Below are positions 14,945 through 30,179 of a DNA stretch of 31,374 nt, piece after piece. This stretch comes from a virus. A program made the translations under genes and the position numbers. The notes under the pieces are model-generated. The model was not told where the DNA came from. It worked only from the letters and a program-made list of their open reading frames with translations, and searched no databases. The stretch is taken from positions 1 to 31,374 of IMG/VR virus record IMGVR_UViG_3300035034_000760; one strand, 5' to 3'. Each line of letters opens with the position of its first letter. Within the stretch, counting starts at the first letter, position 1.

Positions 14945-14969
14945 AGCTTTTAGATTGATATAAATCATC

Positions 14970-15000
14970 GAAGCCTATATCCTAGATATAGGCTTCTTTA
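14970..15000 (+). terminator. Intrinsic terminator between gp32 and uvsX
   Basis: Perfect 12-bp stem (14970-14981 with 14985-14996), loop CTA, followed by TTTA. The upper stem starts GAAGCCTATATC. It ends only about 20 bases before uvsX, with no clear promoter between, so uvsX probably depends on readthrough. Confidence 0.8.
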
Positions 15001-15020
15001 CTACACTTAAGGAGAAAAGA

Positions 15021-16055
15021 ATGAGTGATGTATTTAAAGGTTTTAAACAGAAAAGAAACAAACTAGATGGTGTATCCACGGCATCTGCTCCACCGAAACA
15101 CTGGCTTACAACAGGTAACTATGTAGCCAATAAAGTAATATCGGGGAGATATGATAGAGGATATGCATGTAGTAGAATGACCATGGTCACTGGACCATCA
15201 TCTGCGGGTAAAAGTTTGATGGCAATAGCTGCCGCCGTAGAAGCACAAAAGAAAGGATACGGTGTGTTTATCGTAGACTCAGAACATGCACTTGATGATG
15301 ATTTTATGAAAGCTGTAGGTTTAGATGTGGATAGCGAACTTTTCATGTATAACGATGTAAAGTCTCTCGCAGCAGCTAAAAAACTTACTAACATGTTCAT
15401 AGAAGAATATCGCAGCAATCGCGACCATTTACCACCATTTGTATTACTGATCGATAGCTTGGATCAACTCAAAACCAAATCTCACGTTGAAAAACAAGAG
15501 CGAGGTGATGTCCATAATGACCAAGGCCAACACGCCAAGCAACTAAAGCAGCTATGCTCTGATTTGGCACATGAGATTAGAGATGTTGATATCTTTGGTA
15601 TATGTACTAAACAGCCATATAAAAACCAAGACCTTATAATGTCTAAAGTTGAGCCATATATTATAACAGAGGCTATGAGATTTCCATTCTCACAGATTCT
15701 GCTTTTGACGAACCGTAAAATGCGGGATGCTAAAACTAAGAACTTTGAGGGTATCAACTTGAAGGTTTACGGATACAAGACTAGATTCTGTAAACCTTTT
15801 CAGGCAGCTTCAATAGAAATACCATATGACTCAGGTATTAACCCGTTTAGTGGTATCTTAGAAGTTGCCGAATCAGCGGGTATTGTTACTAAATCTGGGG
15901 CATGGTACACATATGATGATACTAAGTTTCAATCAATAAACGCTGCTTCGGAAGAAACTTTGAATAGTATACTACAAGCCCTTATCGAAAAAGATGAGGC
16001 TGAGAGTTTCTATTTAAATACCGGTGAAGACGCTGATGAAGATACTGATGACTAA
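15021..16055 (+). CDS. uvsX: UvsX recombinase (RecA family)
   Basis: Forms filaments on single-stranded DNA and carries out strand exchange for recombination-dependent replication. Walker A GPSSAGKS (58-65), then an EHALDDDFMKAVGLD segment (RecA-like catalytic Glu region, about 93), Walker B PPFVLLIDSLDQL (about 137-149) and an acidic C-terminal tail (EDADEDTDD). Length 344 is close to T4 UvsX (391, with longer ends). AAGGAG precedes the ATG. The three genes after it, including UvsY and UvsW homologues, follow with overlaps or 1-base gaps. Confidence 0.92.
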   Translation: MSDVFKGFKQKRNKLDGVSTASAPPKHWLTTGNYVANKVISGRYDRGYACSRMTMVTGPSSAGKSLMAIAAAVEAQKKGYGVFIVDSEHALDDDFMKAVGLDVDSELFMYNDVKSLAAAKKLTNMFIEEYRSNRDHLPPFVLLIDSLDQLKTKSHVEKQERGDVHNDQGQHAKQLKQLCSDLAHEIRDVDIFGICTKQPYKNQDLIMSKVEPYIITEAMRFPFSQILLLTNRKMRDAKTKNFEGINLKVYGYKTRFCKPFQAASIEIPYDSGINPFSGILEVAESAGIVTKSGAWYTYDDTKFQSINAASEETLNSILQALIEKDEAESFYLNTGEDADEDTDD

Positions 16056-16566
16056 AAGTCTTAGGGAAACTCTATTAGAGCGGGATCAGATGTATGCTGA
16101 ATACTTAAAGGACATTTCCCTCCACATAGGAGGGAAATTGTCGAAAGCTTTAAGTGAAGTTATATTCGATAATAAAATTATAACTATTATGGTTGAAGAT
16201 ATAAGTGTGGTAACACAAAATATCAACTATGTTTATGTGGTGATAGTAGCCCGATTGGGAAATGTAGACCAACAGGACATATCACAATCAGGGAATAGTA
16301 TCTCGTTTGCAATACCGTTGGAGATTCTAGATAATGGTGATAGTAATGATATTACCGAATACCTTAAAGAGCTTAAAAACCACCAAGAGTCAGAGGGTAG
16401 TCCTATATCACCTGATGGTGGAATGGAATATGTAGAAAGAATCATTGATCGAGTTAAAAAAAAGGCAGAAGGAGAAACAATCCAAGAACCTATTACTGAT
16501 CACGAATTAGATGAAACACAAATAGCTTTAATGAAATTAACAGAGCTTAAGGACACTAAACACTAA
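16048..16566 (+). CDS. Unknown protein in recombination operon (172 aa)
   Basis: The ATG at 16048 overlaps the end of uvsX by 8 bases; earlier in-frame ATGs (16024, 16036) would overlap more and lack a better ribosome site. The N-terminus is basic and helical, the middle (about 35-105) alternates hydrophobic strands (YVYVVIVARLG, ISFAIPLEIL), and the C-terminus is helical and acidic. No motif is recognised. Its place between uvsX and uvsY suggests a role in recombination or repair, by context only. Confidence 0.7.
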   Translation: MTKSLRETLLERDQMYAEYLKDISLHIGGKLSKALSEVIFDNKIITIMVEDISVVTQNINYVYVVIVARLGNVDQQDISQSGNSISFAIPLEILDNGDSNDITEYLKELKNHQESEGSPISPDGGMEYVERIIDRVKKKAEGETIQEPITDHELDETQIALMKLTELKDTKH

Positions 16567-16567
16567 A

Positions 16568-17041
16568 ATGACACAGAAGATACAAAAGGTATTAAGTTTA
16601 AAGGATGCTGAGAAGTTCTTGAAAATACTCAATGAACTCGAAGACCGTATGTCTGGGTGGAAAGAAAACGTTTCATTGGATGGAAAAAATATTCAAACTG
16701 TTAATATTGAACAAGTTGCTTGGATGGGATACTATGATGAGATCAAGGTTGAAGTGAAACACCATATGGATGACCTAGAGCATAGATTGAAAAGACAAAA
16801 GGCAATATCTATAAAAATCATTTATGAAACAATGCAAAAATCTGTGACAGATCGCATGGTTGACAAACTCGCTGAAGAGAATACAGATTATGAAAATATA
16901 TATTCACTATATCTGGAATTCAAACACGTGTATGATAAAGCAGATTCTATTGTGAACGTGTTTCAGCAACGCGCTTATGCGATAAACAATATCGTAAAGA
17001 TTAGAGAAAAAGAATTACAAGAGATTACACTACACACATGA
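16568..17041 (+). CDS. uvsY: UvsY-like recombination mediator
   Basis: UvsY loads UvsX onto gp32-coated DNA. The call rests on size (157 against 137 in T4), all-helical charged composition, position between uvsX and uvsW, and the C-terminal signature: DKADSIVNVFQQRAYAINNI then VKIREKE aligns with T4 UvsY SGALDAIKSRGFAIKHI then QDMRAFE. A Lys-rich helix (about 75-92) matches the T4 helix rich in Lys and Ala. The gene starts 1 base after the previous stop and its TGA overlaps the uvsW ATG. Confidence 0.7.
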   Translation: MTQKIQKVLSLKDAEKFLKILNELEDRMSGWKENVSLDGKNIQTVNIEQVAWMGYYDEIKVEVKHHMDDLEHRLKRQKAISIKIIYETMQKSVTDRMVDKLAEENTDYENIYSLYLEFKHVYDKADSIVNVFQQRAYAINNIVKIREKELQEITLHT

Positions 17042-18615
17042 AAAAAACCACATTAACCGTTCGTATGATTGATGAAGTACATGCTACCGTAAGCGGCCTA
17101 ACACCGGTTGAGTGTGAGGATGTCAGTGATGAGTTTGCATTCTATGCCGATAACTATTTTTTTAGTCCCGATTATCAGTTAGAGAAGTGGGACGGAAAAA
17201 TTAGATTCTTAACCATGGCGGGACTAACCTATTTGGAACTTCTCCCAGATGTTGTAGCAGAATTGGAAAGTCGAGGATATAAGATAAAACTGGTAGATGA
17301 TAGAAAACCTTTTGACTTGGAGGTTGGGACAGTTGATAAAGATTATTTTTCTGAATACGGCTGGACTATTGCTGAACACCAACTTAAAGCTATCAAGGCC
17401 ATATTAGAAGATCACAAAGGAATCATCAAGGTTGGAACAGGTGGCGGTAAGACGTTGATAACAGCGGTTTTAGCTGACTTGTATATCAAGGCTGGAAAAA
17501 GAATTATTGTCATTGTTCCCAATCAAGACCTTATTGTTCAAACAAAGGAAGAAATAGAACAGTTTGATATAGAAGTTGGTGCATATTATCAAAAGGAAAA
17601 AAATCTTAAACCAGCAGTTGTTGTTTCCACATGGCAGTCCCTTGGAAACAATCCTAGAATTTTGAACGATTTTGACGGAGTCATGGTTGACGAATGTCAC
17701 GGCTCAAAGGCTGCAACACTTAAAAAGTTATTAACGGGTGTTACTGGTAAAAATATACCTATACGTATAGGACTAACTGGGACACTCCCCGATCATGACA
17801 CTAATAAACTTACTGTGTTTTGTGCATTGGGTCCAACGGTAGCTGAAGTTCGATCAGAAACATTAATAAAAGAAGGATGGCTTGCAAAACTCAACTTAGT
17901 AATGATGGGATTCAAGGAAGACTTCAAAGAGGAATATGCAGAATTTTTAGAAGAGAACAAAAACGATTCCGAACTCAAAGACATAAAATATGCAGAGTTT
18001 AAAAGAAGGTTCTTGTTTCCGGAATACCAAAACGAAAAAAATTATCTTATCCACAACCCGGAAAGATTAGAAACGCTTGCGATGACTATAAAAAAATTAA
18101 CACAAGAATATGGTAATAGTTTTGTACTCGTCAATTCTGTAGACTTTGGTAAGAAGTTGGCGAAGTTGGTTGGCGACAATTCCATATTCATTAGTGCTGC
18201 CATTAAGGATCGGAAACCGATTTATAAGAGTTTTGATGATAGTAATGGATTGGTCGGTATAGCCACGTATAACTTGGCAAGTACTGGATTAAATATTCCC
18301 AGACTATTTAATGTAATCCTTGTCGATGGTGGAAAGTCTTCAGTTCGAGTTGTTCAGACTATTGGCCGAGGATTACGTCGAGCCAAAGATAAAGATCAGG
18401 TTAATGTAATTGACGTATATTCAGCACTCCCATATTCTAGTAAACACTCAATGAAGAGGCGTAAGATATACAAAGAGGAAAATTATGACTTTTTGGATAC
18501 ACGCTCTGTGAAGTATGAATCACAAAAAGATAAAGAAAATGCTGTACAAAATATTTTGAAGACAGTACAATCACTAAGAGTTGATAGTAAATTAGAACAA
18601 GAGGTATTTGATTAA
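17038..18615 (+). CDS. uvsW: UvsW RNA-DNA/DNA helicase
   Basis: Superfamily 2 helicase which in T4 unwinds R-loops and branched DNA, shifting replication from origin to recombination dependence. Motifs: Walker A VGTGGGKT (ends 139), DECH box (218-221), LTGT motif III (247-250), and QTIGRGLRR motif VI (440-448). The N-terminal 100 residues form the small substrate-binding domain seen in UvsW. Length 525 is close to T4 (503). The start overlaps the uvsY stop (ATGA). The TAATG overlap at its end couples the next gene. Confidence 0.92.
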   Translation: MKKTTLTVRMIDEVHATVSGLTPVECEDVSDEFAFYADNYFFSPDYQLEKWDGKIRFLTMAGLTYLELLPDVVAELESRGYKIKLVDDRKPFDLEVGTVDKDYFSEYGWTIAEHQLKAIKAILEDHKGIIKVGTGGGKTLITAVLADLYIKAGKRIIVIVPNQDLIVQTKEEIEQFDIEVGAYYQKEKNLKPAVVVSTWQSLGNNPRILNDFDGVMVDECHGSKAATLKKLLTGVTGKNIPIRIGLTGTLPDHDTNKLTVFCALGPTVAEVRSETLIKEGWLAKLNLVMMGFKEDFKEEYAEFLEENKNDSELKDIKYAEFKRRFLFPEYQNEKNYLIHNPERLETLAMTIKKLTQEYGNSFVLVNSVDFGKKLAKLVGDNSIFISAAIKDRKPIYKSFDDSNGLVGIATYNLASTGLNIPRLFNVILVDGGKSSVRVVQTIGRGLRRAKDKDQVNVIDVYSALPYSSKHSMKRRKIYKEENYDFLDTRSVKYESQKDKENAVQNILKTVQSLRVDSKLEQEVFD

Positions 18616-19106
18616 TGGTCTTTTTAGACGAAAACAATGTTCCAATATTTTTGGAAAGTATAGACATTCCCACAGTATCAGAGTATTTCTGGAGCTTTTC
18701 TTTAAAAGAGAGAGACTTCATGCTCAATGAAATTATTACTTTGGAAGAGATGGAGGTGTCAGCCTTAACTCTGGCAATCATGGGATATGTAATCAAAGTA
18801 CCAACCTCTTGGAATATGTTAATATACTCACAAGAAACTATGCAGATTGATATTATCGAAGTACATGAGTTGACTAAGGGCAACTTCAGTGCAGTTGTGT
18901 ACGATCACAAGAGGGACTATGTTGTCCCCGGTGCTGGATTGGTTAGAGTATTAGATTACATTCCACATAATAAGATTATGACTCCAACGCTCCATAAATC
19001 CACAATGTTATGTCACCCTATTGGGCCTACACATTGGGTGTGTGTTTCACCTACAGATAATTACAATAAATATTTGAAAGACGCAGTTATAGGAGATTTG
19101 TACTAA
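18615..19106 (+). CDS. Hypothetical protein (163 aa)
   Basis: TAATG overlap with uvsW and again with the next gene. Residues about 40-130 look like a beta-rich domain (WNMLIYSQETMQIDIIEVHE, then RDYVVPGAGLVRVLDYI), ending in a conserved-looking GPTHWVCVSPTDNYNKYLK and a hydrophobic C-terminus. The Trp/Pro-rich end with NKYLK reminds me of hypothetical proteins of T4-like phages. No catalytic motif is evident. Context is DNA recombination; function unknown. Confidence 0.7.
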   Translation: MVFLDENNVPIFLESIDIPTVSEYFWSFSLKERDFMLNEIITLEEMEVSALTLAIMGYVIKVPTSWNMLIYSQETMQIDIIEVHELTKGNFSAVVYDHKRDYVVPGAGLVRVLDYIPHNKIMTPTLHKSTMLCHPIGPTHWVCVSPTDNYNKYLKDAVIGDLY

Positions 19107-19612
19107 TGGCGATAAAAAACAAAAAGTTTTCAGTTTCGGAATTCCAAACTTGGTTAGATGGTATTATGGAATTTCAGGAATCTGGATGGTCACCCACCCC
19201 AGAACAATGGAAGTCTATTTATCAAAAGATACAGAACTTGAAAGAGCCTGTACTAACCCCTAGAAAGGTTTCTATCGACGATGATTCTAGGAGTGAAATG
19301 GTGGACGAAATATTACAAAGTATCCCGGACATTAGTGGAGTTGACTTTGAATTAATGAGTAATGTATTGAACGCAATTCTAAACCAAATGCGTCAGGGCG
19401 CTACAGTGACACCACCACAACCCCATCAACAGCAACCCCAACAGGTAAATCCCAACACCCTCGCCCCTACAGCAGCAGTGCCGGGTAACGATCTGGCCAA
19501 CCTCTCTTTAAGTGAATTGAAAAGACAACAGGGTCACGACAATGTTAACATGGGGCAAAGCAGCGATCAGCGCATATTGGAGTCTGACGAAGCTATGGAC
19601 TCATACGTTTAA
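19106..19612 (+). CDS. Hypothetical protein with Gln/Pro-rich linker (168 aa)
   Basis: TAATG overlap and an AGGAG site (19091-19095) define the start. Two short helical parts (about 10-47 and 60-97, the latter SEMVDEILQSIPDISGVDFE) are followed by a low-complexity Gln/Pro linker (about 103-118) and an acidic, Ser/Leu-rich tail. This layout suggests an adaptor that binds partners through short helices; no family is recognised. The next gene follows after 6 bases. Confidence 0.7.
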   Translation: MAIKNKKFSVSEFQTWLDGIMEFQESGWSPTPEQWKSIYQKIQNLKEPVLTPRKVSIDDDSRSEMVDEILQSIPDISGVDFELMSNVLNAILNQMRQGATVTPPQPHQQQPQQVNPNTLAPTAAVPGNDLANLSLSELKRQQGHDNVNMGQSSDQRILESDEAMDSYV

Positions 19613-19618
19613 TAACCA

Positions 19619-20194
19619 ATGTCGGTTTATTATGAGAAATTAAAAGATCGAGACCTTTGGATTGACGGTGAATCCAGTCTATCTATTGATACTATATGTG
19701 ATCGAATATTTTCAGGCGAAGAACCAACAGAAATCCTAAAAAATAATCTGATTAGTGAGAGGGACCAAAAAGAGATAAAAAGGTTTTTAACTCTCACCCC
19801 GGAACATAAAAATGTACAAGCAGTTTTTAAGGACAAAGCGTCTATAAAAAAACTTGATACATCGTTTGACATACATGACAGTTATAAAAATAAAAGTATA
19901 GAGCATGTTTTAGTCAAGAAGCTAAAAGGGGAAATTATTAAAAAGAATTTGACCGATGATGAAACTATGGAACGGGTTGACCGCATAGAGAAAGAGATAC
20001 AACTGTTCAGGAATCATGGACTACATGACGTACTGGGAGCATGTTTGTATATTGTCGATACACTTAAACGTAGGAGTGTTGTTTGGGGTCCCGGTCGAGG
20101 GAGTGCTTGTTGTTCTTATGTATTATACTTGATAGGCATTCACAATATCGATAGTGTGGCGTTTGAATTAGAAATAAACGAGTTCCTAAGATAG
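19619..20194 (+). CDS. DnaE-like palm fragment, N-terminal half (GRGS motif)
   Basis: The C-terminal 75 residues follow bacterial DNA polymerase III alpha (C family). RIEKEIQLFRNHGLHDVL matches the helix before the palm (RLEYELGVIxKMGFxGYFL), and VVWGPGRGSACCSYVLYL, then IGIHNIDS, matches [26 protein letters not shown]. It ends in ELEINEFLR where DnaE has LLFERFLNPER, just before the catalytic PDIDID motif, which is absent here. GRGS is at 159-162; in polymerases of this fold the GS contacts the incoming nucleotide triphosphates. The first 110 residues are not recognised, and no PHP domain is seen. The missing part appears in the gene at 28749. No clear Shine-Dalgarno is seen; the start follows the previous stop by 6 bases. 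Confidence 0.7.
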   Translation: MSVYYEKLKDRDLWIDGESSLSIDTICDRIFSGEEPTEILKNNLISERDQKEIKRFLTLTPEHKNVQAVFKDKASIKKLDTSFDIHDSYKNKSIEHVLVKKLKGEIIKKNLTDDETMERVDRIEKEIQLFRNHGLHDVLGACLYIVDTLKRRSVVWGPGRGSACCSYVLYLIGIHNIDSVAFELEINEFLR

Positions 20195-20195
20195 T

Positions 20196-20204
20196 TATAA
20201 ATAG
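20196..20204 (+). promoter_or_regulatory. T4-type late promoter
   Basis: TATAAATAG, full match, two bases after the preceding stop and about 32 nt before the ATG at 20236. Confidence 0.7.
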
Positions 20205-20235
20205 AAACGCGAAACCTATAGGAGTTACAAACATA

Positions 20236-20541
20236 ATGGCTAGAAAAGTGAAAAGTATAAAAGGTGAAGAGGTTGATTTTGATCTTTTGAAAACGAAGCA
20301 GGAATTAGGTGAAAAGGAACGTGTTCTTGAAGTACGAGATCGAGAAGATTTTGTACACACCAAGAGGCGTACCCGTGGAAGAGCGGCATTACTGGATCGT
20401 TTGAACAAAAATAAGAAGACCCGAGAGTCTGACACAAAAACTAAAAGTTCTACAACCAACGTTGACTCTACAACTAAAACATCATCTGAAACCGTTGCAC
20501 CCAAGTCTAAACCGAAAAGAAAGATTGTTAAAAAAGACTAA
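20236..20541 (+). CDS. Small basic hypothetical protein (101 aa)
   Basis: AGGAG precedes the ATG. The N-terminal half has MARKVKSIKGEEVDFDLLKT and a KRRTRGRAALLDRLNK helix; the C-terminal half is a Ser/Thr/Lys-rich disordered tail ending PKRKIVKKD. Such basic proteins could bind nucleic acid or be packaged, and the late promoter supports a late role. A similar N-terminus occurs in small hypothetical proteins of aquatic T4-like phages from memory. It is followed by a GroES-like gene in the same transcript. Confidence 0.7.
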   Translation: MARKVKSIKGEEVDFDLLKTKQELGEKERVLEVRDREDFVHTKRRTRGRAALLDRLNKNKKTRESDTKTKSSTTNVDSTTKTSSETVAPKSKPKRKIVKKD

Positions 20542-20549
20542 GGAAAACT

Positions 20550-20843
20550 ATGAAAATATCATTACTTGAAGACAAAATATCATTTCGTTTTGAAGAAAAC
20601 ATCTCTAACGGGGGGTTTGTTGAGCAAACTCAATCCGGTATTTTAATCCAAGAAGAACACTCTAAACAGGTTGAACAGCCACGCTGGGGTATCGTACATC
20701 AAATCGGTCCCGAATGTGTGGATGTAAAAGAGGGTGACGTTGTCCTCATCGAAGCTCCCATGTGGACAAATGGTATTGATATGAACGGCACCGTTGAGGA
20801 GTTTTGGGTGACGCGAGAAGAATATGTAATGGCAATTCGCTAA
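20550..20843 (+). CDS. GroES-like co-chaperonin (gp31 analogue)
   Basis: At 97 residues it has GroES size. Residues 20-35 (NGGFVEQTQSGILIQEE) fit the mobile loop that docks to GroEL, ending in a GILI tripeptide-type contact; WGIVHQIGP and VKEGDVVLIEAP fit the barrel strands (GxVVAVGxG and VKVGDxVLF). T4 replaces host GroES with gp31 to fold the capsid protein gp23; a similar role is likely here, in the cytoplasm with host GroEL. It is on a late-promoter transcript, consistent with capsid folding. Whether it is closer to gp31 or to bacterial GroES needs alignment. Confidence 0.75.
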   Translation: MKISLLEDKISFRFEENISNGGFVEQTQSGILIQEEHSKQVEQPRWGIVHQIGPECVDVKEGDVVLIEAPMWTNGIDMNGTVEEFWVTREEYVMAIR

Positions 20844-20849
20844 TTTTAC

Positions 20850-20858
20850 TATAAATAG
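20850..20858 (+). promoter_or_regulatory. T4-type late promoter
   Basis: TATAAATAG, full match, core ending about 26 nt before the ATG at 20884. Confidence 0.7.
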
Positions 20859-20883
20859 TTAGATAATATAAGCTTTATAAACT

Positions 20884-21804
20884 ATGCCATTTTTAATAAT
20901 GATGATTATCGGCACTTTCTCAATTGCAAGTGCCGCCATATATTTCAGTGTGTTGGGACTAGTACAGACATTCTCCGAAACCGCACTGTTTTGGGGAACC
21001 GCAATAGAGGTGGCCAAACTTATACTGGCCTCCTTCGTATATAGATACTGGGACGACCTCCAAACTTTCTACCGAGCATTATGTATATTCTTCATTGGAA
21101 TGTTGATGGTGATTACCTCTTTGGGTATATCTGGCCATATTTTGTCGTCTATGCAACAAAGTGATCTCGAACTCTCATCTCAACAAATACAAGTACAAGC
21201 GGTTGAAACTCGTCTATCTAGAACACAAGATAGGATTGACTTCATTGATCAAAGACTTGACCAAGAGCGTACCAGATTTCAGGCAATAGAAGATGAAATA
21301 TCCGAGATACCGAATACATTTGTCACAGCCAGAAGACAACTCATACAAGAAAGACAACCAGAGAAAGATGAAATACAGGACAGGATGAATGGGATGTTTG
21401 TTGAAAGGGAAACCCTATTCCAACAACTAGAAGAGTCGGAACAAGAGATATCACAGCTTTCACTACAAACGGAACAGATTGAAATAAAGGTTGGACCAAT
21501 CGTTAAAATTGTAGAAACCTTCGGGGCAGATGCAGAAAAAGCAATTTATATATTCATTTTAATTATCGTGTTGAGTTTTGACCCGGTGGCAGTAATGTTA
21601 ACAATTTCATCAAACCGGGTGGCACTAGATATAAAACATAAAAAGCAACAGACCGTAGACGGTGTTGTTGAGCCGAAAATACCCGTAGCAACTAACACAA
21701 ATGATAAAAAATTGGATCAAATCGTTGATACTATGGGGAACCTTCAGGCCAAATTGGATGAGGATGACGAAAGAAAACGTCAGGTTAGAGATTCTTTATC
21801 TTGA
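20884..21804 (+). CDS. Membrane protein with long coiled coil (306 aa)
   Basis: Hydrophobic segments are at about 1-26, 29-52, 62-88 and 218-242, so four membrane helices are likely. Between the third and fourth lies a 115-residue Gln/Glu/Arg-rich coiled coil (about 93-210, repeated Q-I-x-x-E-x-x-L type heptads); the C-terminal 60 residues are charged. The coiled coil would sit on one side of the inner membrane as a loop. A single late promoter precedes it. I recall similar four-helix coiled-coil proteins in other T4-like phages, unassigned. A role in lysis timing or in membrane-attached assembly is conceivable but not supported by a motif. Confidence 0.7.
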   Translation: MPFLIMMIIGTFSIASAAIYFSVLGLVQTFSETALFWGTAIEVAKLILASFVYRYWDDLQTFYRALCIFFIGMLMVITSLGISGHILSSMQQSDLELSSQQIQVQAVETRLSRTQDRIDFIDQRLDQERTRFQAIEDEISEIPNTFVTARRQLIQERQPEKDEIQDRMNGMFVERETLFQQLEESEQEISQLSLQTEQIEIKVGPIVKIVETFGADAEKAIYIFILIIVLSFDPVAVMLTISSNRVALDIKHKKQQTVDGVVEPKIPVATNTNDKKLDQIVDTMGNLQAKLDEDDERKRQVRDSLS

Positions 21805-21829
21805 TGTATAGTCACTAAGCCCCTATAAT
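21801..21829 (+). promoter_or_regulatory. Sigma70-like promoter for clamp loader
   Basis: TTGATG (21801-21806), 17 bases, TATAAT (21824-21829). The -35 overlaps the previous stop codon. Predicted start is near 21836-21837, inside the hairpin described next. Confidence 0.6.
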
Positions 21830-21853
21830 TGTCTCCATATACAGGAGACAGTT
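21827..21853 (+). promoter_or_regulatory. Hairpin covering gp44 ribosome binding site
   Basis: AATTGTCTCC (21827-21836) pairs with GGAGACAGTT (21844-21853), 10 bp including one G-U, loop ATATACA. The 3' arm contains the GGAG of the ribosome binding site (AGGAG 21843-21847) for the ATG at 21855. Only transcripts from upstream would contain the 5' arm. Confidence 0.55.
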
Positions 21854-21854
21854 C

Positions 21855-22799
21855 ATGCCTAAACAGCTTTGGTGGCAAAAACACCGCCCATCTACACTAG
21901 ACAATTTTATTTTCCAGAACCAAGAACAGGAAATGTTTATACGAAAGTGTGTGGAGGAAAAGAGTATCCCACACTTACTATTACATGGTCCAAAAGGTTC
22001 AGGTAAAACAACACTTGCAGAAATTATCATTTCTGCATTAGTTGAACCGGACAACATTTCGTCCGACGTTCTCCGCATCAATGGTTCAAAAGACGGCAAG
22101 ATTGATAATATCCGTAATCAGTTGGTCAATCATGTCACCTGCATTCCCATGGGCGACATACAGATCGTTTTTGTGGATGAGGCTGACGGTTTGTCATCTT
22201 CGGCCCAAGACTCTCTTAGGGGCATCCTAGAGATGTATGACAAGGATGCGAGAGTTATCTTTACATGCAATTATGTAAATAGGTTAACTCCTGAACTCCG
22301 TTCACGCTTCACCCAAATGAAGTTTAATCACCCAAGTAAGGATTCTGTCATTGAATACTGTGCTGATATTCTCGATGCCGAGGGTGTTAGCCTTGAGGAT
22401 GAAGGAAACTTGAAAGCGTTCAAGGAAATAACGGATTCTTACACTGGTGATCTTCGACAACTAGTAATAAGTTTAGACAATTCAACATATGGTGATTCGT
22501 TAAAGAGTTCATCAATTGAAGATGCCAGTGTAGATATAAAACTACAGATTTTTGATAGTGTAGCAGAAGATAACTGGATACAAGCTAGACGAATAGCAGC
22601 CGAGAACTTTAGTGATGATGAACTGATTGAAGTGTATCGCTTTCTATATGAATATCTCGAAGATATGGAGAAATTCGACGATCCTGATAGTTGGAAGAAG
22701 GGAATCGTGATTATATCGGATAATATGTATCGACATGCGACCCATCCTGATCAGGAAATAAATTTTGCAAGTTGTCTAATTAGACTATCAGAGGTGTAA
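21855..22799 (+). CDS. 44: Sliding clamp loader, ATPase subunit gp44
   Basis: AAA+ ATPase that, with gp62, opens and loads the gp45 clamp for the replicative polymerase. Walker A GPKGSGKTT (45-53), Walker B VFVDEADG (105-112, DEAD), a sensor-1 FTCNY (136-140) and ELRSRF (147-152) in the place of the SRC/arginine-finger motif. Length 314 compares with 319 for T4 gp44. The start has AGGAG 7 nt upstream. The three following genes are coupled closely (1-base gap or overlap), including gp62. Confidence 0.93.
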   Translation: MPKQLWWQKHRPSTLDNFIFQNQEQEMFIRKCVEEKSIPHLLLHGPKGSGKTTLAEIIISALVEPDNISSDVLRINGSKDGKIDNIRNQLVNHVTCIPMGDIQIVFVDEADGLSSSAQDSLRGILEMYDKDARVIFTCNYVNRLTPELRSRFTQMKFNHPSKDSVIEYCADILDAEGVSLEDEGNLKAFKEITDSYTGDLRQLVISLDNSTYGDSLKSSSIEDASVDIKLQIFDSVAEDNWIQARRIAAENFSDDELIEVYRFLYEYLEDMEKFDDPDSWKKGIVIISDNMYRHATHPDQEINFASCLIRLSEV

Positions 22800-22800
22800 T

Positions 22801-23112
22801 ATGAGATTATCAGAAGATCAAGTTAAAGAGGACTTAGACCGTGTGTCTAGGTTTCCGGAAAACGCAGACAAACTTTCTTGGAGAAGAAAGTTAGAGAAGA
22901 TGGAAAAGTTTCTAACAGAGTTGGAACCAATTGAAGAGGAAATCTTTGAGTTATACCAACAAAAGATTCCTATAATGGATAAGGTCACACAACTCAGAAA
23001 GATCATGGTGGATGAATGTATTCACCCAAAAGATCACCTTGTACATAAGGGAACCCATATTGAGTGTAAGTTCTGTAACAAAATAATAAAGCCGGTCAGA
23101 AAAAGTGGCTGA
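22801..23112 (+). CDS. Hypothetical protein with zinc-knuckle-like C-terminus (103 aa)
   Basis: Lies between the two clamp-loader subunits, 1 base after gp44. Residues 1-70 form a charged helical hairpin. The C-terminal 30 residues contain ECIHPKDHLVHKG and then ECKFCNKII: C-x-H and C-x-x-C, with spacing that could bind one zinc ion. No family name can be given. Position suggests a role with the clamp loader or replication, by context only. Confidence 0.7.
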   Translation: MRLSEDQVKEDLDRVSRFPENADKLSWRRKLEKMEKFLTELEPIEEEIFELYQQKIPIMDKVTQLRKIMVDECIHPKDHLVHKGTHIECKFCNKIIKPVRKSG

Positions 23113-23533
23113 TATATTTGAACAATTAAACAAAATAGATAGCTTTGATGTATCTGCTATTGATGATGACGAGTTTTTCAAACAGTTTAACCCGTTCATG
23201 ATTAACAAGTGGATGGCTGCTACAACTAATCCTAAAAGGATTCTATTGGTTAATGGGATACTGAACCCCACCATCTTCCAATTAAACAGAGAAAAGAAGC
23301 TGTTGTATTACCTATCGTGCTGTGCCTCTACAGGTAAAGAACGGTATACTTGGATCAAACGACCTAAGAATACACCAGACCCCATTGTGGATTTGGTTTC
23401 AGTCTATTATGGAATTTCACCTAGGGAAGCTAAACAATCGTTGATACTTCTTTCGAAAGATGATATTCTAGAAATGGCTGAAGATATTGGCCTAGAAAAG
23501 TCGGAAGTAAAGAAACTAAAGAAACATCTATGA
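23105..23533 (+). CDS. 62: Sliding clamp loader, small subunit gp62
   Basis: GTG start overlapping the previous gene by 8 bases. Family features: NPFMINKWMA (residues about 29-38) as in the FIVNRALS part of other gp62 proteins, a helical middle (NREKKLLYYLSCCAS) and KERYTWIKR in place of the KRYGKWAK of T4 gp62, then the helical VVxxYYxxSxxxAxxxLxxLS end. At 142 residues it is shorter than T4 gp62 (187). It would bridge gp44 subunits. No enzymatic motif is expected. Confidence 0.8.
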   Translation: MADIFEQLNKIDSFDVSAIDDDEFFKQFNPFMINKWMAATTNPKRILLVNGILNPTIFQLNREKKLLYYLSCCASTGKERYTWIKRPKNTPDPIVDLVSVYYGISPREAKQSLILLSKDDILEMAEDIGLEKSEVKKLKKHL

Positions 23534-24222
23534 TCCCTAAATTTCACCAATGTGAGTTTTGCTCTAAGACTTTTGCCAATGAAAAAAATCTGAGCAAACA
23601 TAGTTGTGAGTACCAAAAAAGGTACGAATATTTAACCGAGAAGGGTTCTGGTGTAACACTATACAGGCTTTATATTTTTTGGTTGAAAGATAAGAAGCGA
23701 TCAGTACGCTATGTTGATCATCATACATTTATCCATTCTACTCACTACAAACCATTTGTTAGGTTCATACAGTTTGCAAAAAAGTATAGTCTTCCGGATA
23801 AAAAATTGTACATATCATACTGCAATAGTAAGAACATTAGTCCTAAGTATTGGGATGATCAAGAACTGTATGAGAGATTCATTTGCTACTATGATGAAAT
23901 ACATCCGTACTATAAACAACTAGAAACTAGCTTTAAAACAATATTTCAAATATGTGAGTGGTTAGAGTTAGATGACCCTTCCCAAATATTTTCAGAGCTT
24001 GATAGTAAAACAGTATTAGAATTACTGAGGCGCAGAAAAATATCACCATGGTTGTTTTTCAATAGTGAAGTGTTTTTGGATTATCTAAAGACAAAGGCTT
24101 CTGCCAGTGAGAGGGATCATGTACAACAGGTCACTAACCCTAAACGTTGGAGGGGGATTTTCGAATCTAAACCCAATGAGAGAAAAAAGGCTATTGATAT
24201 AATAAAGCAAATGGGACTTTGA
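23530..24222 (+). CDS. C2H2 zinc-finger-like protein (230 aa)
   Basis: ATGA overlap with gp62. The N-terminus has CEFCSKTFANEKNLSKHSCE: C-x2-C-x12-H-x2-C, a classical-type zinc finger with Cys as last ligand. The rest is basic, aromatic and helical, without an enzyme motif; several YKPFVRF/KYWDD-like segments recall a family of hypothetical proteins in T4-like phages. A nucleic-acid-binding role is likely from the finger. It ends the clamp-loader group, which is closed by a terminator. Confidence 0.75.
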   Translation: MIPKFHQCEFCSKTFANEKNLSKHSCEYQKRYEYLTEKGSGVTLYRLYIFWLKDKKRSVRYVDHHTFIHSTHYKPFVRFIQFAKKYSLPDKKLYISYCNSKNISPKYWDDQELYERFICYYDEIHPYYKQLETSFKTIFQICEWLELDDPSQIFSELDSKTVLELLRRRKISPWLFFNSEVFLDYLKTKASASERDHVQQVTNPKRWRGIFESKPNERKKAIDIIKQMGL

Positions 24223-24233
24223 TAAACCACCCT

Positions 24234-24260
24234 AAAGGTGTGGGCCTCATGCACACTTTT
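24234..24260 (+). terminator. Intrinsic terminator before fibre genes
   Basis: AAAGGTGTG (24234-24242) pairs with CACACTTTT (24252-24260), 9 bp with one G-U, loop GGCCTCATG, the T run closing the stem. It separates the clamp-loader transcript from the late fibre transcript. Confidence 0.6.
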
Positions 24261-24268
24261 ATAAATAG
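24260..24268 (+). promoter_or_regulatory. T4-type late promoter
   Basis: TATAAATAG directly after the terminator stem, core ending about 25 nt before the ATG at 24293. Confidence 0.7.
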
Positions 24269-24292
24269 TGATGATCAGAAGAACTATTGTAG

Positions 24293-25591
24293 ATGGCCAT
24301 AAATTGTAACGACTCTTCTTATACCATTAGAAAGGTAGATACCAACACCAGTGAGATCACTGTAAACAAAGGTGAGATCAACCAAACTAGTGTTGATCTA
24401 ACATTGTTGGGTAAAAGACGGAGAGAGTATGGGGAAACCTTTAACGAAAACTTATTAAAACTTTTAGAGAACTTTAGTTCTCCAGAAGATGCAACTAATC
24501 CCGGTAATCCCGATCCGGCTAACACTAGTGGTGGAGTTTTGGCTAACCCAACTGCTGGTCAAGTATGGCATAATTCTACAGCCGATAGACTCTATCAGTT
24601 TACGGGTGCTGCATGGGTAGCATTAGAAGAACTGGGTGATGTCGCAGGAAATTCAGGAATTATAAGCAGTGGTCAACAGCTTCCTAGACCCGTTAGTTCA
24701 TATACTGGATACGTTTTCCCATATGAGGAATGTAGCTGGATTGTATCACCTCGAAGCTTTGGTACAGAACCAATAGAATATATGTTGTGTGTTACTGATG
24801 ATCAAGCCAACGTGACGTTTGAATATCTAGTAGAAGGTATGTCTGACGTAAGAACTAGTCTCGTTAATTACCAAATAATAGGTATACGAGATAATGCAAA
24901 CTTGGGTATACAGGTTAGTCCCGGCCCACGCCCATCACCAACACCGACACCAACACCAAGTAGTTCTACTGGTCTTACTGCAACACCGACACCAACACCT
25001 TCTGTGGGCGCGTCACAGTCAGCAACACCGACACCGACACCGACACCGAGTACGAGTGGAATAGCACCGTCAGCAACACCGACACCGACACCAACACCTT
25101 CTCAGGGTGCGTCACAGTCAACAACACCAACACCGACACCGACCTCGTCACAGTCAGCAACACCGACACCGACACCAACCTCAACAACTACTCCGACACC
25201 AACACCGAGTACTTCTGTTGCAGCGTTGACGTTGGCTGGACCGAGCACGATTTCTAACTTGAAAGCGGACACATGTATTCAGGGTTCTCCCGGCTCTCTA
25301 GCTACAGCATTTGTCATAACTGCGACTGGTGGAACCGGGCCATATACATATAGTAATGTTAGTATATCGCTATCCGCGAACGTACCCGCGAACGTAACGA
25401 GTATAACAATATCACCTACCACAATACCTTCACCGGTAACTGGAGGCTTTACTATTACTGTTAGTTACCCCGAAGATTGTGCTACGTGGGCGGTTACTGG
25501 TACTGTGACAATGAGAGTCACAGATGACAATAGTGTCACAGATGACTTGACAATACCAGTCAATAGTATTCAACGAATTGAAGATGGATAA
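24293..25591 (+). CDS. Tail-fibre-like protein A with (PT)n linkers (432 aa)
   Basis: N-terminal module (1 to about 205): GKRRREYGETFNENLLKLLENF, then one GQVWHNSTADRLYQFTGAAW unit and PRPVSSYTGYVFPYEECSWIVS. This LLENF-GQxWYN pattern is familiar from phage fibre or baseplate-attached proteins. Residues about 215-305 are PT repeats broken by Ser-rich pieces; residues about 310-432 form one beta sandwich of Ig/PKD type (GGTGPYTYSNVSISL). The PT linker would give a long flexible arm carrying the terminal domain. Two paralogues follow in the same direction. Receptor binding is inferred from architecture. Confidence 0.75.
   Translation: MAINCNDSSYTIRKVDTNTSEITVNKGEINQTSVDLTLLGKRRREYGETFNENLLKLLENFSSPEDATNPGNPDPANTSGGVLANPTAGQVWHNSTADRLYQFTGAAWVALEELGDVAGNSGIISSGQQLPRPVSSYTGYVFPYEECSWIVSPRSFGTEPIEYMLCVTDDQANVTFEYLVEGMSDVRTSLVNYQIIGIRDNANLGIQVSPGPRPSPTPTPTPSSSTGLTATPTPTPSVGASQSATPTPTPTPSTSGIAPSATPTPTPTPSQGASQSTTPTPTPTSSQSATPTPTPTSTTTPTPTPSTSVAALTLAGPSTISNLKADTCIQGSPGSLATAFVITATGGTGPYTYSNVSISLSANVPANVTSITISPTTIPSPVTGGFTITVSYPEDCATWAVTGTVTMRVTDDNSVTDDLTIPVNSIQRIEDG
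24931..25215 (+). repeat. Low-complexity (PT)n-coding repeat
   Basis: Repeats of ACACCG/ACACCA hexamers in runs of three to five, interrupted by Ser-rich spacers (GTCACAGTCAGCA recurs). It codes the PTPTP linkers of fibre A. Such repeats are prone to length change. Confidence 0.85.
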
Positions 25592-25603
25592 TAGAGAGAT
25601 ATT

Positions 25604-26200
25604 ATGACATATAATGTAGATTTTACTGACCCACTAAAAGCACCCATAGAGGTAGAAGAAACCGGACTAAACGAAGACTTCAGTGTCTCGTTCCCCGGAA
25701 GAATTCGACTGGAGTGGGGAAAGGATGTAAATGAGAGCCTTCTTAGAATGTTGGAGAACTTTGCATCTCCTGCATTAGATGCTAACGAAAATGTACCAGA
25801 TGAAGCATACTCTGGCACTATTCTCTCAAACCCGGTGGATGGTCAGGTATGGTATAACACCACAAATGAAAGAATATACAAGTATTCAGAAACATTAGCA
25901 GTTTGGACTCCATTAGGAAACAGGGGCCAAATGTACGCAGCCAACTGGGGCCAAATACAGAATGGGGCCACTGTGCCAAGACCGGTTGCTAGTAACGGTT
26001 ACGTTTTTCCGTATGACGAATGCATAGTTTCAGTATCACCACACAATTATTTGGATGGTACTAAAAATATGTTATGTCGAGTTAATCAGACTACTGGTGT
26101 TGTTCAAATGCTTTATATCACAAAGGGCACAAACCAATCAATAAGCGGTATAGCTAACTACATGATAGTCGGCATTTTGAAAAACCAAAACCAAGGATAA
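25604..26200 (+). CDS. Tail-fibre-like protein B, N-terminal module only (198 aa)
   Basis: Paralogue of the first 205 residues of proteins A and C: GKDVNESLLRMLENFASP, GQVWYNTTNERIYKYSETLAVW, NGYVFPYDECIVSVSP and IANYMIVGILKNQN. It stops exactly where A and C enter their PT linkers. It may be a capping or attachment subunit that pairs with the long versions, or a fibre that lost its distal part. The AGAGAG site lies upstream, 12 bases after the stop of A. A late promoter for the next gene overlaps its stop codon. Confidence 0.75.
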   Translation: MTYNVDFTDPLKAPIEVEETGLNEDFSVSFPGRIRLEWGKDVNESLLRMLENFASPALDANENVPDEAYSGTILSNPVDGQVWYNTTNERIYKYSETLAVWTPLGNRGQMYAANWGQIQNGATVPRPVASNGYVFPYDECIVSVSPHNYLDGTKNMLCRVNQTTGVVQMLYITKGTNQSISGIANYMIVGILKNQNQG

Positions 26201-26204
26201 ATAG
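26197..26204 (+). promoter_or_regulatory. T4-type late promoter
   Basis: ATAAATAG overlapping the TAA stop of fibre B, core ending about 23 nt before the ATG at 26227. Confidence 0.65.
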
Positions 26205-26226
26205 AGCATACTCTACGGAAAATATA

Positions 26227-26400
26227 ATGTACATACTCGTTAATCAACAAAACATAATTGTGGCCAGTTCTACTAACAAGCCAAGTGAACCCGATTGTTC
26301 GGAAAAGGGGCTTATAATTTACAAAGTGGCTAAGAGTGAGTATGATCCAACATTAATAGGACAACAACTAGATACATTCGATACAGTAGAGAGACAATAA
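26227..26400 (+). CDS. Small hypothetical protein between fibre genes (57 aa)
   Basis: The product begins MYILVNQQNIIVASSTNKPS and ends DTFDTVERQ. Support: it lies right behind a late promoter, and its TAA overlaps the ATG of fibre C (TAATG at 26398-26402), the usual coupling here. The sequence suggests a small beta domain (YILVNQQNIIVAS, LIIYKVAKSEYD). Possibly a fibre accessory or chaperone; no family is recognised. Confidence 0.65.
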   Translation: MYILVNQQNIIVASSTNKPSEPDCSEKGLIIYKVAKSEYDPTLIGQQLDTFDTVERQ

Positions 26401-27986
26401 TGACAACCACTTACAACCTTTCCAAAACAGATCAAACAAAAAGTACTATCCAAATTGATGAGAATACTAAGATCACCAATCTTGTTGATATCGTACTGTT
26501 TGGGTATAAAAAGCTGGAATACGGTCGTGAGTTGAATGAAAACTTTTTACATTTATTAGAAAGTTTTGCGTGTCCACAACTGGGTTCGGATGATTCTACC
26601 CCCGATACTTCTAGAGCAAACTACGGAAAACTATCTGAAGCAAAATTAATTGAAGGACAGTTCTGGTATAACACTACGGCTTCCGTTTTAAACTTTTGGG
26701 ACGGAACACAGTGGGTACCTTTGTCGAATCTCGGAGAAGAAATTGCAGCCAACTGGGGCCAGATTCTAGATGGACAGCAGTTACCAAGACCGGAAAGTGC
26801 TTCAGGATATCTGTTCCCATATGAAGAATGTAGTTGGATTGTCTCAACGTTTAACCAGAACGGCCTGATAGACAATATGGTATGTAGAACTGATGATATA
26901 GCAACTGTTGAAATGACGTATATTTATGATGGGGCGGGAACTACCACTGGTGCAGTTGCCAACTATTTGATTGTGGGGATTAAGGATAATAATAACATAG
27001 GTACCCAAATACCTGTACCACCACCCCTACCTTCGTCTGTACCGGAACCATCACAAACTCCAACACCGACACCAAGTACTTCGGTTGGTGCGTCTCAAAC
27101 TCCAACCCCAACACCTACCCCGACTCCAACCGAGTCAGGACCAGCAGTGTTTAACCCACTGGTGTTGAGAGTTAACAGCCCACTAACGGCTACGTGTTCC
27201 GGAGCTTCAAGTTGTACGGCATCTAGGGTTGTTACAAGTGGTGATTATACGATAGCGGGTGGAAGTGGTAACTACACATATTTGTGGCAGTCCATATCCC
27301 CAACAACGTTTAACCTTAGTAGCAGTACGAGTGCAACACCAACGATGCTAAGAACTGCCAATGTGGGATCAACATATAGTGGAACCGGAAGATTGACGGT
27401 AACTGATACAATAACCATGGAAACCGTTTCTAGGCTATTTTCGTTCAACACCACTCATAATTTTATTGGTGTTACTAATACACCTACACCAACGCCAACA
27501 CCTACACCAACACCAAGTAGAAGTGTGACACCTACGCCTACGCCAACACCTACCCCAAGTAATAGTGGTGCAGAGACACTAACGGCAACGGTTTCTGGTT
27601 CTTGTGGTTCGGTTATAACAACCTTTAATGATTCACTCTGTATGGGTGGAGTCTTTAACGGAATTTCTGATGCTGTAACGGTCGTACCATCCTCAATCGT
27701 TGTGCCATCTGGTGGTGTTGGACCATATACCTACTCAGTGAACCCTGCTTCTGTAGTCACAAATACTACAGGTAATGGACTTCTACAAGGGGTTAATGCC
27801 AACAGTCCACTTCCCGGCCAAATAACAGTCCAGTATGGAAACGGGCCAACACAAAGTAGCCAGTTAACGTATAACATAGATGTTACATGTACAATTGTGG
27901 TAACTGATTCTATCGGTAATACCTTTAACCGCACAGGAGTCTTGTGTACAATTGTTATTGATAGAAGTTGCAATGACCCTGAATAA
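26400..27986 (+). CDS. Tail-fibre-like protein C with two PT linkers (528 aa)
   Basis: N-terminal module as in A and B (YGRELNENFLHLLESF, GQFWYNTTASVLNFWDGTQW, GYLFPYEECSWIVS, NYLIVGIKDNNNIG). Then a PT linker (about 216-245), a first Ig/PKD-like domain (about 250-355, GGSGNYTYLWQSISPTTFNLS), a second PT linker (about 360-387) and a second beta domain (about 390-528, GGVGPYTYSVNP) with several Cys. Thus it is A with one domain added and unrelated distal sequence. It probably forms the longest fibre of the set. The next gene is a fibre-assembly-like protein. Confidence 0.75.
   Translation: MTTTYNLSKTDQTKSTIQIDENTKITNLVDIVLFGYKKLEYGRELNENFLHLLESFACPQLGSDDSTPDTSRANYGKLSEAKLIEGQFWYNTTASVLNFWDGTQWVPLSNLGEEIAANWGQILDGQQLPRPESASGYLFPYEECSWIVSTFNQNGLIDNMVCRTDDIATVEMTYIYDGAGTTTGAVANYLIVGIKDNNNIGTQIPVPPPLPSSVPEPSQTPTPTPSTSVGASQTPTPTPTPTPTESGPAVFNPLVLRVNSPLTATCSGASSCTASRVVTSGDYTIAGGSGNYTYLWQSISPTTFNLSSSTSATPTMLRTANVGSTYSGTGRLTVTDTITMETVSRLFSFNTTHNFIGVTNTPTPTPTPTPTPSRSVTPTPTPTPTPSNSGAETLTATVSGSCGSVITTFNDSLCMGGVFNGISDAVTVVPSSIVVPSGGVGPYTYSVNPASVVTNTTGNGLLQGVNANSPLPGQITVQYGNGPTQSSQLTYNIDVTCTIVVTDSIGNTFNRTGVLCTIVIDRSCNDPE
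27041..27132 (+). repeat. (PT)n-coding repeat, first copy in fibre C
   Basis: Runs of CCAACACCGACACC-type units coding PTPTP, split by a Ser/Val/Gly spacer. Confidence 0.8.
27477..27560 (+). repeat. (PT)n-coding repeat, second copy in fibre C
   Basis: Runs of ACACCTACACCAACGCC-type units, coding the second PTPTP linker, split by SRSV. Confidence 0.8.
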
Positions 27987-28003
27987 GATGGTATAATGTC
28001 AGT

Positions 28004-28777
28004 ATGAGAGAAATAAAAAATCTTAAAACCTCTAAGACTGAAGACCAAATAAGAGATGAAATTTTGGCACTACGTGCCAAGAAAGTGAGCCAGTTGGCAT
28101 ATACCGACTGGACACAACTAAAGGATGTCACATTAGAAAATGCTAATGATTTTGGGGCATGGAGGTCTGAACTCCGACGATACAAAATACGTCACAACGA
28201 AGACTCCAAAAAATTGGATGAAATAATTTCCAGAAAGCCAGTAGCAATACTATCAAACACTGCATCAACTGTAGTGGGTACGGATACCCCGCTCCCCAAT
28301 TATGTGGGTCCACCAACTGACTTACCAGAACCAACATCGCATGGAACTCCTGTAATCACACGCACAAATGAAGAGTGGCGCAATTTTCCGGATAGAGCAC
28401 CATTGACATCTATGAAAAATGCCATGGATAAACTTACTGAAATTTTGACAGCGGATAAAAGCATTGAATTAGAAAACGCAGATGTTGGTAGTTATAATTT
28501 GTTTAGGTTGATACAAGAAGAATTGATTGACTATGAAAACATGGCATCAGACAATCCTCCCAAGTTCCTCAAACGGTATATGGATGTATTGGGATATTCC
28601 CACACTGATCCCGAAAACCTTATACAATTAGATATAATATGTAAAAATTATTTCACCAACATCAACGAAATATTTTTTCGGTTTGAAGAAAAGATTCGAA
28701 GAGTTTACAATATGTCCAACGATGAACTAACAAAGGAGTTGGGCGAACGTGGATATAGATATAGACCTTCAGACTAG
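28004..28777 (+). CDS. Tail-fibre-assembly-like protein (257 aa)
   Basis: Residues about 17-60 (IRDEILALRAKKVSQLAYTDWTQLKD, broken here for length) follow the motif R-x-x-R-x-x-x-L-x-x-(S/T)-DWTQ-L-x-D followed by W-x-x-Y/L-R-x-x-L-R, common in phage tail-fibre assembly proteins and their N-terminal domains. The rest is helical (about 140-250), with a Pro-rich middle. Position directly after three fibre genes supports a role in folding or attaching them. There is no clear Shine-Dalgarno. Its last 29 bases overlap the next gene's start. Confidence 0.6.
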   Translation: MREIKNLKTSKTEDQIRDEILALRAKKVSQLAYTDWTQLKDVTLENANDFGAWRSELRRYKIRHNEDSKKLDEIISRKPVAILSNTASTVVGTDTPLPNYVGPPTDLPEPTSHGTPVITRTNEEWRNFPDRAPLTSMKNAMDKLTEILTADKSIELENADVGSYNLFRLIQEELIDYENMASDNPPKFLKRYMDVLGYSHTDPENLIQLDIICKNYFTNINEIFFRFEEKIRRVYNMSNDELTKELGERGYRYRPSD

Positions 28778-29327
28778 TGTAGACACACAAGAGCTTTTCC
28801 CACGTGCTATACGTGCCTCTATGAATGAAAGGGGTGAACTTAAAACACATTTAGTGGGAAATTATTTTCAACACATTCCAGTAGATAAGGAAACGGGCCT
28901 TGCGGCAATAACATATAAAAAAGCTCTGGAATATGGGTTTTTTAAAATTGACCTCATTCATCTAAAACTTTTAGACCGTTTTGAATCTAAGGATCAGTTG
29001 GAGAAATATATGTTTAGAGAACCCAAGTGGGAAATGTTCACTGATTCCACTGTTGTTTCCAAACTGTTTCATTTATATAAGTCATATGATTTGTTGGCAA
29101 AAGTTAAGCCTTGTTCAGTTTTGGAAGTTGCAGATTGTCTAGCCTTAATTCGTCCGGGCAAAGTACGTTTGATAAATAGTTACATCAAAGACAAAAAGGC
29201 GATCAGACAGGAGCTATACAGGAAAGAACAGGCCAGTGATTTGAGAAAATCTCACGCCATTCCCTACGCCTACTTAGTTATAGCTAATATTAATCTGATC
29301 GAAGACGGACTCTATGAAACTTTATAA
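28749..29327 (+). CDS. DnaE-like palm/fingers fragment, C-terminal half (catalytic Asp)
   Basis: GTG start behind AAAGGAG, 29 bases inside the previous gene. The protein begins with MDIDIDLQ (Asp2, Asp4, Asp6), matching PDIDIDF of bacterial polymerase III alpha, where the first two catalytic aspartates lie (E. coli D401, D403). GFFKIDLIHLKLL (Asp68) matches GLVKxDFLGLRTL, the third aspartate (E. coli D555). SKLFHLYKSYDLLAKVKP and ALIRPG (from about 132) match GVFQLES...KP and ALYRPG. KSHAIPYAYLV (167-177) matches NKSHAAAYALxSYQ. The long DnaE region between the second and third aspartates is greatly shortened, and no PHP, clamp-binding or OB domain follows. The N-terminal palm part is missing and found in the gene at 19619. 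Confidence 0.75.
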   Translation: MDIDIDLQTSVDTQELFPRAIRASMNERGELKTHLVGNYFQHIPVDKETGLAAITYKKALEYGFFKIDLIHLKLLDRFESKDQLEKYMFREPKWEMFTDSTVVSKLFHLYKSYDLLAKVKPCSVLEVADCLALIRPGKVRLINSYIKDKKAIRQELYRKEQASDLRKSHAIPYAYLVIANINLIEDGLYETL

Positions 29328-30120: not shown

Positions 30121-30152
30121 GTTATATTTTTATTATTGTCGGAATATGTCGG

Positions 30153-30160: not shown

Positions 30161-30179
30161 CACCGTTCTGGAATAGTGA

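Follow-up and report, generated by a model that had tools for sequence, protein, structure and literature searches.

Can the sequence around a promoter's -10 element also serve to switch off the translation of RNA that was started elsewhere? The question is raised by the leader of a gp44-like clamp loader gene in a 31,374-nucleotide stretch of viral DNA (IMGVR_UViG_3300035034_000760; the whole of it is called the window below). A first-pass annotation had proposed that a hairpin hides the Shine-Dalgarno (SD) sequence of this gene in readthrough RNA only, RNA from the gene's own promoter being started past the 5' arm of the stem. We think it quite probable, on the strength of the comparisons presented here, that this leader is a promoter-embedded translational insulator, whose SD is accessible in RNA from the gene's own promoter but masked in readthrough RNA.

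The gp44 leader and its gene setting

The features on which the argument turns are the following.

20196..20203, + strand: further-upstream TATAAATA motif (motif scan)
20850..20857, + strand: T4-type late promoter motif TATAAATA ahead of the upstream gene (motif scan)
20884..21804, + strand: co-directional gene before gp44, membrane-like with a coiled coil (by eye), no PHROG match
21801..21806, + strand: -35-like hexamer TTGATG (read from the sequence; kept in relatives L001-L003)
21824..21829, + strand: -10 hexamer TATAAT after a 17-nt spacer (read from the sequence; kept in L001-L003)
21827..21836, + strand: 5' arm of the stem, AATTGTCTCC, the anti-SD arm, within the promoter (sequence, RNAfold, leader comparison)
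21837..21843, + strand: loop of 7 nt between the arms
21844..21853, + strand: 3' arm of the stem, GGAGACAGTT, holding GGAG of the gp44 SD (sequence, RNAfold, SD opening cost)
21855..22799, + strand: gp44-like clamp loader subunit, 314 aa (PHROG 168, E 1.5e-61)
22801..23112, + strand: 103-aa ORF after gp44, no family; an ORF of similar size stands at the same place in Xanthomonas phage XacN1
23105..23533, + strand: gp62-like clamp loader subunit (PHROG 225, E 3.8e-12)
23530..24222, + strand: 230-aa ORF, last of the cluster (PHROG 11058, function unknown)
24260..24267, + strand: TATAAATA motif past the gp44 cluster (motif scan)

The stem has 10 pairs, with a single G-U (21829-21851), and RNAfold of 21781-21900 returns exactly this structure (z -1.74; 13 of 200 shuffles fold equally well), so that the first description of it was right to the base. 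AGGAG occupies 21843-21847 and the ATG stands at 21855. The sigma70-like promoter (21801-21829) lies where it had been placed and overlaps the 5' arm. Its transcription start is predicted at A21837, 8 nt past the -10 hexamer, this being both the first loop base and the first purine at a normal distance from that hexamer; own-promoter RNA would thus be without the 5' arm, in agreement with the start near 21836-21837 that had been suggested. By calculation, readthrough RNA needs 11.1 kcal/mol for its SD to be opened and own-promoter RNA 1.2 kcal/mol, and the same method gives 12.5 and 3.5 kcal/mol, respectively, for T4 lysozyme. The stop codon of the upstream frame (21802-21804) precedes the stem arm by 22 nt, so the hairpin should fold despite a terminating ribosome.

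The mechanism that we propose is simple. The sequence around the -10 element would also serve as anti-Shine-Dalgarno arm for gp44. Polymerase at the gp44 promoter would start just past this arm and produce a short leader with a free SD, from which gp44 and then gp62 would be made, whereas RNA begun anywhere upstream (the late promoters at 20850 and 20196 are examples) would carry the arm, fold the hairpin over GGAG and leave gp44 untranslated. Clamp-loader output would then be set by gp44's own promoter rather than by late transcription through the region. The calculated opening costs support the earlier proposal that own RNA is translatable and late readthrough RNA silent, but its restriction to late RNA is not established and indeed too narrow, because the SD would be sequestered in every RNA that begins upstream. 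The gene at 20884..21804 is the putative source of readthrough RNA into gp44. Families farther upstream include terminase, SSB, a UvsX-like protein and a helicase, and the presence of the last three, which are replication genes, means that RNA entering gp44 need not be late only.

Regarding the late promoters, the number of TATAAATA sites in the window is not above chance (5 over both strands, 3.5 expected). The four + strand sites (64, 20196, 20850 and 24260) nevertheless each stand just ahead of a listed ORF start, which makes a late promoter at 20850 credible. In a 117.8-kb relative (G003), TATAAATA occurs 20 and 3 times on the two strands and the reversed pattern 7 and 3 times, a strand bias that supports a T4-type late programme.

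Other features of the window may be recorded here. At 14970-14996, between the SSB-like and UvsX-like genes, a terminator-like hairpin (12 pairs, loop of 3 nt) overlaps a weak TTGATA-17-TATCCT site. Past the gp44 cluster, three adjacent ORFs (24293-25591, 25604-26200 and 26400-27986) all belong to PHROG 15511, an unknown family, which suggests a tandem duplication. Rfam gave 0 matches over the window at gathering score. The gp44 hairpin was also considered as a terminator, an idea that was dropped for lack of a T-run: none follows 21853, and the hairpin is absent from the window's 12 terminator-like sites.

How unusual is this locus? When the part upstream of the SD was shuffled, the score of the SD-covering stem was equalled or beaten in 44 of 5000 shuffles (a chance of about 1%), and the + strand of the window holds 6 hairpins of this score, against 2.25 per shuffle. 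Taken alone, the stem is therefore only modestly unusual, suggestive but not proof. The promoter is among the 8 top-scoring sites (10/12) of the 56 promoter-like sites in 14000-31374; since 52.6 were expected, shuffled sequence gives about as many such sites and the match by itself is not significant. Both figures would suit a chance coincidence of a promoter-like sequence with an SD complement, devoid of regulatory effect. It is comparison across phages that, in our opinion, makes the layout convincing.

gp44 leaders in near and distant phages

A blastn search of 20000-23000 against phage records gave no match, and relatives were therefore gathered at the protein level. The nearest are three IMG/VR contigs (L001-L003), whose gp44 is 82% identical to that of the window and whose leaders are identical to each other. 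They retain both promoter and stem, with a loop of 10 instead of 7 nt and of changed letters; the G-U pair becomes A-U and the outermost pair is lost. Compensatory changes had been expected in related phages, and between the window and these three leaders we found no two-sided one, the change being one-sided only.

One could argue that the conserved object is a DNA palindrome, bound at the promoter by a repressor or activator, with the hairpin as a by-product. Indeed the -10/start region is spanned by a perfect dyad, TTGTCTCC-N-GGAGACA, which the near relatives retain, and TGTCTCC-N(3-16)-GGAGACA, with its one occurrence in the window, is found in 0 of 100 shuffles. An operator of this kind sits uneasily, however, with a dyad found at only one place in the window and at only one in each of the three related contigs, with half-sites whose spacing shifts from 7 to 10 in these relatives, and with distant gp44 leaders that differ in letters, spacing and place while SD pairing persists. 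We consider it improbable, somewhat more so than chance coincidence.

These distant leaders came from a profile search combined with phage records, which yielded 270 starts and, once near-identical ones had been collapsed, 196 distinct leaders. A stem score of at least 18 is reached in 10 of the 52 leaders with a sigma70-like promoter, against 2 of the 144 without. A stricter set of 33 leaders (proximal promoter, at least 90 nt upstream, SD-like match required, other loci excluded) includes 10 such stems, where 2.07 were expected by swapping SDs and 1.37 by shuffling; the swap expectation is the higher of the two, probably because leaders within a set share parts of their SD. The 5' arm lies inside the promoter in 10 of 10 strong-stem leaders and between start and SD in none of them. 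Since L015 and XacN1 (L011) are 80% identical in gp44, and the window and L003 are likewise close, the ten should be counted as about eight independent cases.

The 5' arms have no common sequence: AATTGTCTCC in the window, TAATACCT in L015, ATAATACC in XacN1, ATTCCTATAT in Sinorhizobium phage Phosso (L012), GACTCCTTATTGTTA in L049 and TTTTATTCCTACGG in L022; L154 and L165 show the same layout, again with unrelated letters. The stems reach 20 pairs in L139, 15 in L049 and 14 in L022, and the position of the arm (-10/+1, spacer or -35) differs between leaders. What stays constant across distant gp44 leaders is that the arm pairs with the SD and lies within the promoter. Opening the SD costs, in readthrough and own-promoter RNA respectively, 9.0 and 0.8 kcal/mol in L003, 16.4 and 0.8 in L139, 15.2 and 1.2 in L049, and 11.3 and 1.6 in L022. 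L016, with a stem of 6 pairs only, gives 3.2 and 2.8 kcal/mol, and little effect is predicted there (0.4 kcal/mol).

The chance explanation can point to the 23 of 33 proximal-promoter leaders in which a strong stem is missing, but it has to face the recurrence of unrelated stems at the same gene (10 of 33, with 1.4-2.1 expected), as well as the pooled enrichment and the regB covariation described below. We regard it as unlikely, although it is the least unlikely of the alternatives to a promoter-embedded insulator.

Another alternative is a translational operator at the gp44 start, bound on readthrough RNA by a RegA-, gp43- or gp32-like protein. Repressors of this sort do control T4 replication genes, according to the available text of PMC3014915. 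Half of the hairpin would, however, be missing from own-promoter RNA, the relatives have no hairpin letters in common, and RegA sites, in the same text, lack RNA structure. We give this reading very little credit.

The junction ahead of gp44 shows further structures. By eye, the gp44 genes of L042, L069 and L088 have upstream of them a terminator-like hairpin and then a promoter. In these three and in L011 (2440-2475) terminator and promoter overlap compactly, the -35-like hexamer falling within the terminator-like hairpin that ends the preceding gene, either in its loop or in its second arm. XacN1 gp44 appears to have a terminator-like hairpin as well as the SD-covering stem. This suggests that the junction is often insulated by one means or another.

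The layout at other genes, and covariation at T4 regB

The promoter-in-stem layout is not special to gp44: it recurs at other genes, T4 early genes included. A first genome-wide scan took in 1668 genes from 16 groups of phage DNA and was then enlarged by T4 in full, by KVP40, S-PM2 and SPO1, and by segments of Aeh1 and of E. coli (100 kb). Some genomes are partly covered (XacN1 by 1-380000 of its 384670, Phosso by 1-400000 of 469473 and Aeh1 by 1-100000 of 233234, among others), and the counts exclude genes with an SD match below 4 nt. In the 16 groups a stem score of at least 20 is found at 17 of 121 sigma70-like genes called co-directional (1.7 expected by shuffling), at 10 of 97 late-promoter genes (1.7 expected) and at 16 of 876 promoter-less genes. 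In the pooled set, 201 sigma70-like genes include 26 with such a stem, where swapping gives an expectation of 7.21 (Poisson p 5e-8), and 187 late-promoter genes include 19, where it gives 5.81. If single-gene groups are included, 28 of 205 sigma70-like genes have such a stem, versus 44 of 1797 promoter-less genes; in these 28 the 5' arm lies in the promoter 25 times, across the predicted start twice and upstream once. The E. coli segment holds 0 suitable promoter-proximal genes and SPO1 one, and both are controls for the no-promoter class only. Among the 201 sigma70-like genes, the median difference in SD opening between readthrough and own-promoter RNA is 6.7 kcal/mol for stem scores of at least 18 and 0.5 for those below 14, and the window's gp44 ranks tenth by this difference.

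Two observations call for caution. Stems at divergent genes are not expected under the insulator model, and any found there count against it: genes labelled divergent by our crude ORF caller have a stem in 6 of 38 cases (2.0 expected by shuffling), of which three, all in Phosso, are co-directional by annotation, two look co-directional and one is truly divergent. Secondly, stems scoring at least 20 occur at 15 of 296 promoter-less Phosso genes, which means that SD-covering stems have other uses too.

In G003, the nearest relative, lysozyme-type hairpins at late promoters precede an HNH endonuclease (L099 6736+), an Rz-like spanin (L096 13100+) and a NUMOD3 homing endonuclease (L096 17273+), gene types that match those of T4; sigma70-type stems precede gp44 and a MazG-like pyrophosphatase and, in weaker form, a NAD-dependent DNA ligase. 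In XacN1 (L129 11325-), the gene for a 107-aa DUF5658 protein has its SD covered by a 20-pair stem (loop of 3 nt), and the 5' arm of this stem takes up the -10 of a TTGACA promoter together with its spacer.

T4 itself is instructive. The scan picked up the known cases e, 49, I-TevI and I-TevII (I-TevI being the gene that we take to be such from its length and place); soc, a reported hairpin gene, was not recovered by it. Sigma70-type T4 genes have a stem score of at least 20 in 6 of 21 cases, against 0.38 by shuffling, and mrh.2 has a weak stem. The six are the following.

L384 (T4 1-50000), 13130, - strand: modB
L390, 3885, - strand: nrdC.8
L390, 12740, - strand: regB
L390, 15355, - strand: denV
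L393, 13032, - strand: alt.-3
L394, 6278, - strand: alc

Their stems, of 10-15 pairs, join the SD to the stretch between -35 and predicted start, and opening the SD is costlier in readthrough RNA by 6.7-12.5 kcal/mol. For regB, whose promoter is a typical early promoter (available text of PMC3014915), T4 was compared with eight T4-like phages, chosen for low identity and genus spread from the 45 matches listed (693 records had a match). MAFFT lost the register of the arm, and for the count of pairs the leaders were lined up at the SD. In 9 of 9 leaders the -35 is GTTTAC, the arm lies at or just after its end, and the SD is covered by a stem of 7-15 pairs, the weakest being that of Klebsiella phage Mexia. 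Four central SD pairs are invariant, and eight neighbouring positions show 2-4 standard pair types (for example CG/GC/UA, or GC/GU/UA/AU); F27, F2 and NicPhage have identical stems, so these three of the nine are one case. Read in this way, the two-sided changes at regB are direct compensatory evidence, in a related system outside the window's clade. As to control of the GGAG SD by a RegB enzyme, the RegB family PF10715 matched 0 of 12 records, which may be fragments, and no control genome gave a match either. The expectation of a conserved stem is borne out by the layout of L001-L003 and of distant gp44 leaders, and that of compensatory change, which fails between the window and its nearest relatives, finds its support in the unrelated stems of distant gp44 leaders and in regB.

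The invariance of SD pairing in both gp44 leaders and regB also speaks against the view that the hairpin is mainly a site of RNA processing or decay, the gp44 message being removed from readthrough RNA without any block to ribosomes. RNases can be drawn to stable stems, and RNA processing is widespread in T4 (PMC3014915, in its available part), but the gp44 hairpin carries no T-run, terminator or processing mark, and we find this explanation as hard to credit as a protein-bound operator.

The insulator reading of gp44 invites a more general one, to which we incline with some reserve: insulation by anti-SD arms embedded in promoters may be a general code of large T4-like phages, serving many genes, early or replication genes of the sigma70 type and late genes of the T4-late type alike. 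Phage genomes are dense arrays of genes with extensive readthrough, and their RNA levels are often at odds with the timing of proteins. If such a code exists, many genes with a promoter of their own inside co-directional arrays would be translated only from own-promoter RNA, readthrough would be translationally neutral, the timing of each gene would be kept without terminators, and T4 regB, denV, alc and modB would be cases that had gone unnoticed. If promoters routinely hold an anti-SD arm, genes translated solely from their own promoter could be predicted from sequence. A T4 transcriptome and proteome study concludes, in its available part, that the translational factors behind discrepancies between RNA and protein still need study (PMC9697503). 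A device of late T4 genes would be extended to early and replication genes, and T4 permits a direct test in a laboratory phage.

Comparison with known systems

Hairpins that silence early RNA and leave late RNA open are described in T4 at e, soc, 49, I-TevI and other homing endonuclease genes, and ribosome-site-hiding hairpins with an internal late promoter also at I-TevII, I-TevIII, Aeh1 mobE and T4 segB (available parts of PMC3014915 and PMC2988022); the genes concerned are all late genes according to the second of these texts, and for lysozyme the first reports a repression of about 100-fold. The device proposed for the window's gp44 is the same, a stem that covers the SD only in upstream-started RNA and an own promoter in the region of the 5' arm. 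The difference is that in those T4 genes, as these sources have it, the own promoter is late (TATAAATA) and the silent RNA early, whereas gp44 is a replication gene with a sigma70-like promoter, and upstream RNA, late RNA included, would be the silent one. Set against the lysozyme type, gp44 has its SD covered in the longer RNA, and its own RNA is predicted from the hexamer positions to be without the 5' arm; its promoter is TTGATG-17-TATAAT and not TATAAATA, whereas the type has a late promoter and silent RNA that is early or middle. The likeness to T4 lysozyme in reverse, drawn already by the first-pass annotation, is apt (PMC3014915, available part): the predicted switch follows the lysozyme principle with its sign reversed, and is not a strict member of the lysozyme-type class.

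A bacterial parallel may be added. In the fold-back inhibition of IS10/Tn10, readthrough RNA hides the ribosome site of the transposase gene, and a sigma70-type promoter lies inside the hairpin region. There a mobile element is shielded from neighbouring promoters; here the gene belongs to the core replication set of a T4-like phage.

Further counterparts are the six T4 early genes listed above, which share with gp44 a sigma70-type promoter and an anti-SD arm between -35 and start, and differ from it in the genes and stems themselves and in a -35 that reads GTTTAC. An early or sigma70-type version of the device was not found in the available parts of PMC3014915, PMC2988022 and PMC2988021 or in a search of mostly open-access literature, and older work on T4 early promoters may well hold it. 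Promoter-in-hairpin control of the lysozyme type, with its sign reversed, appears to be at work at many genes, the early genes of T4 among them.
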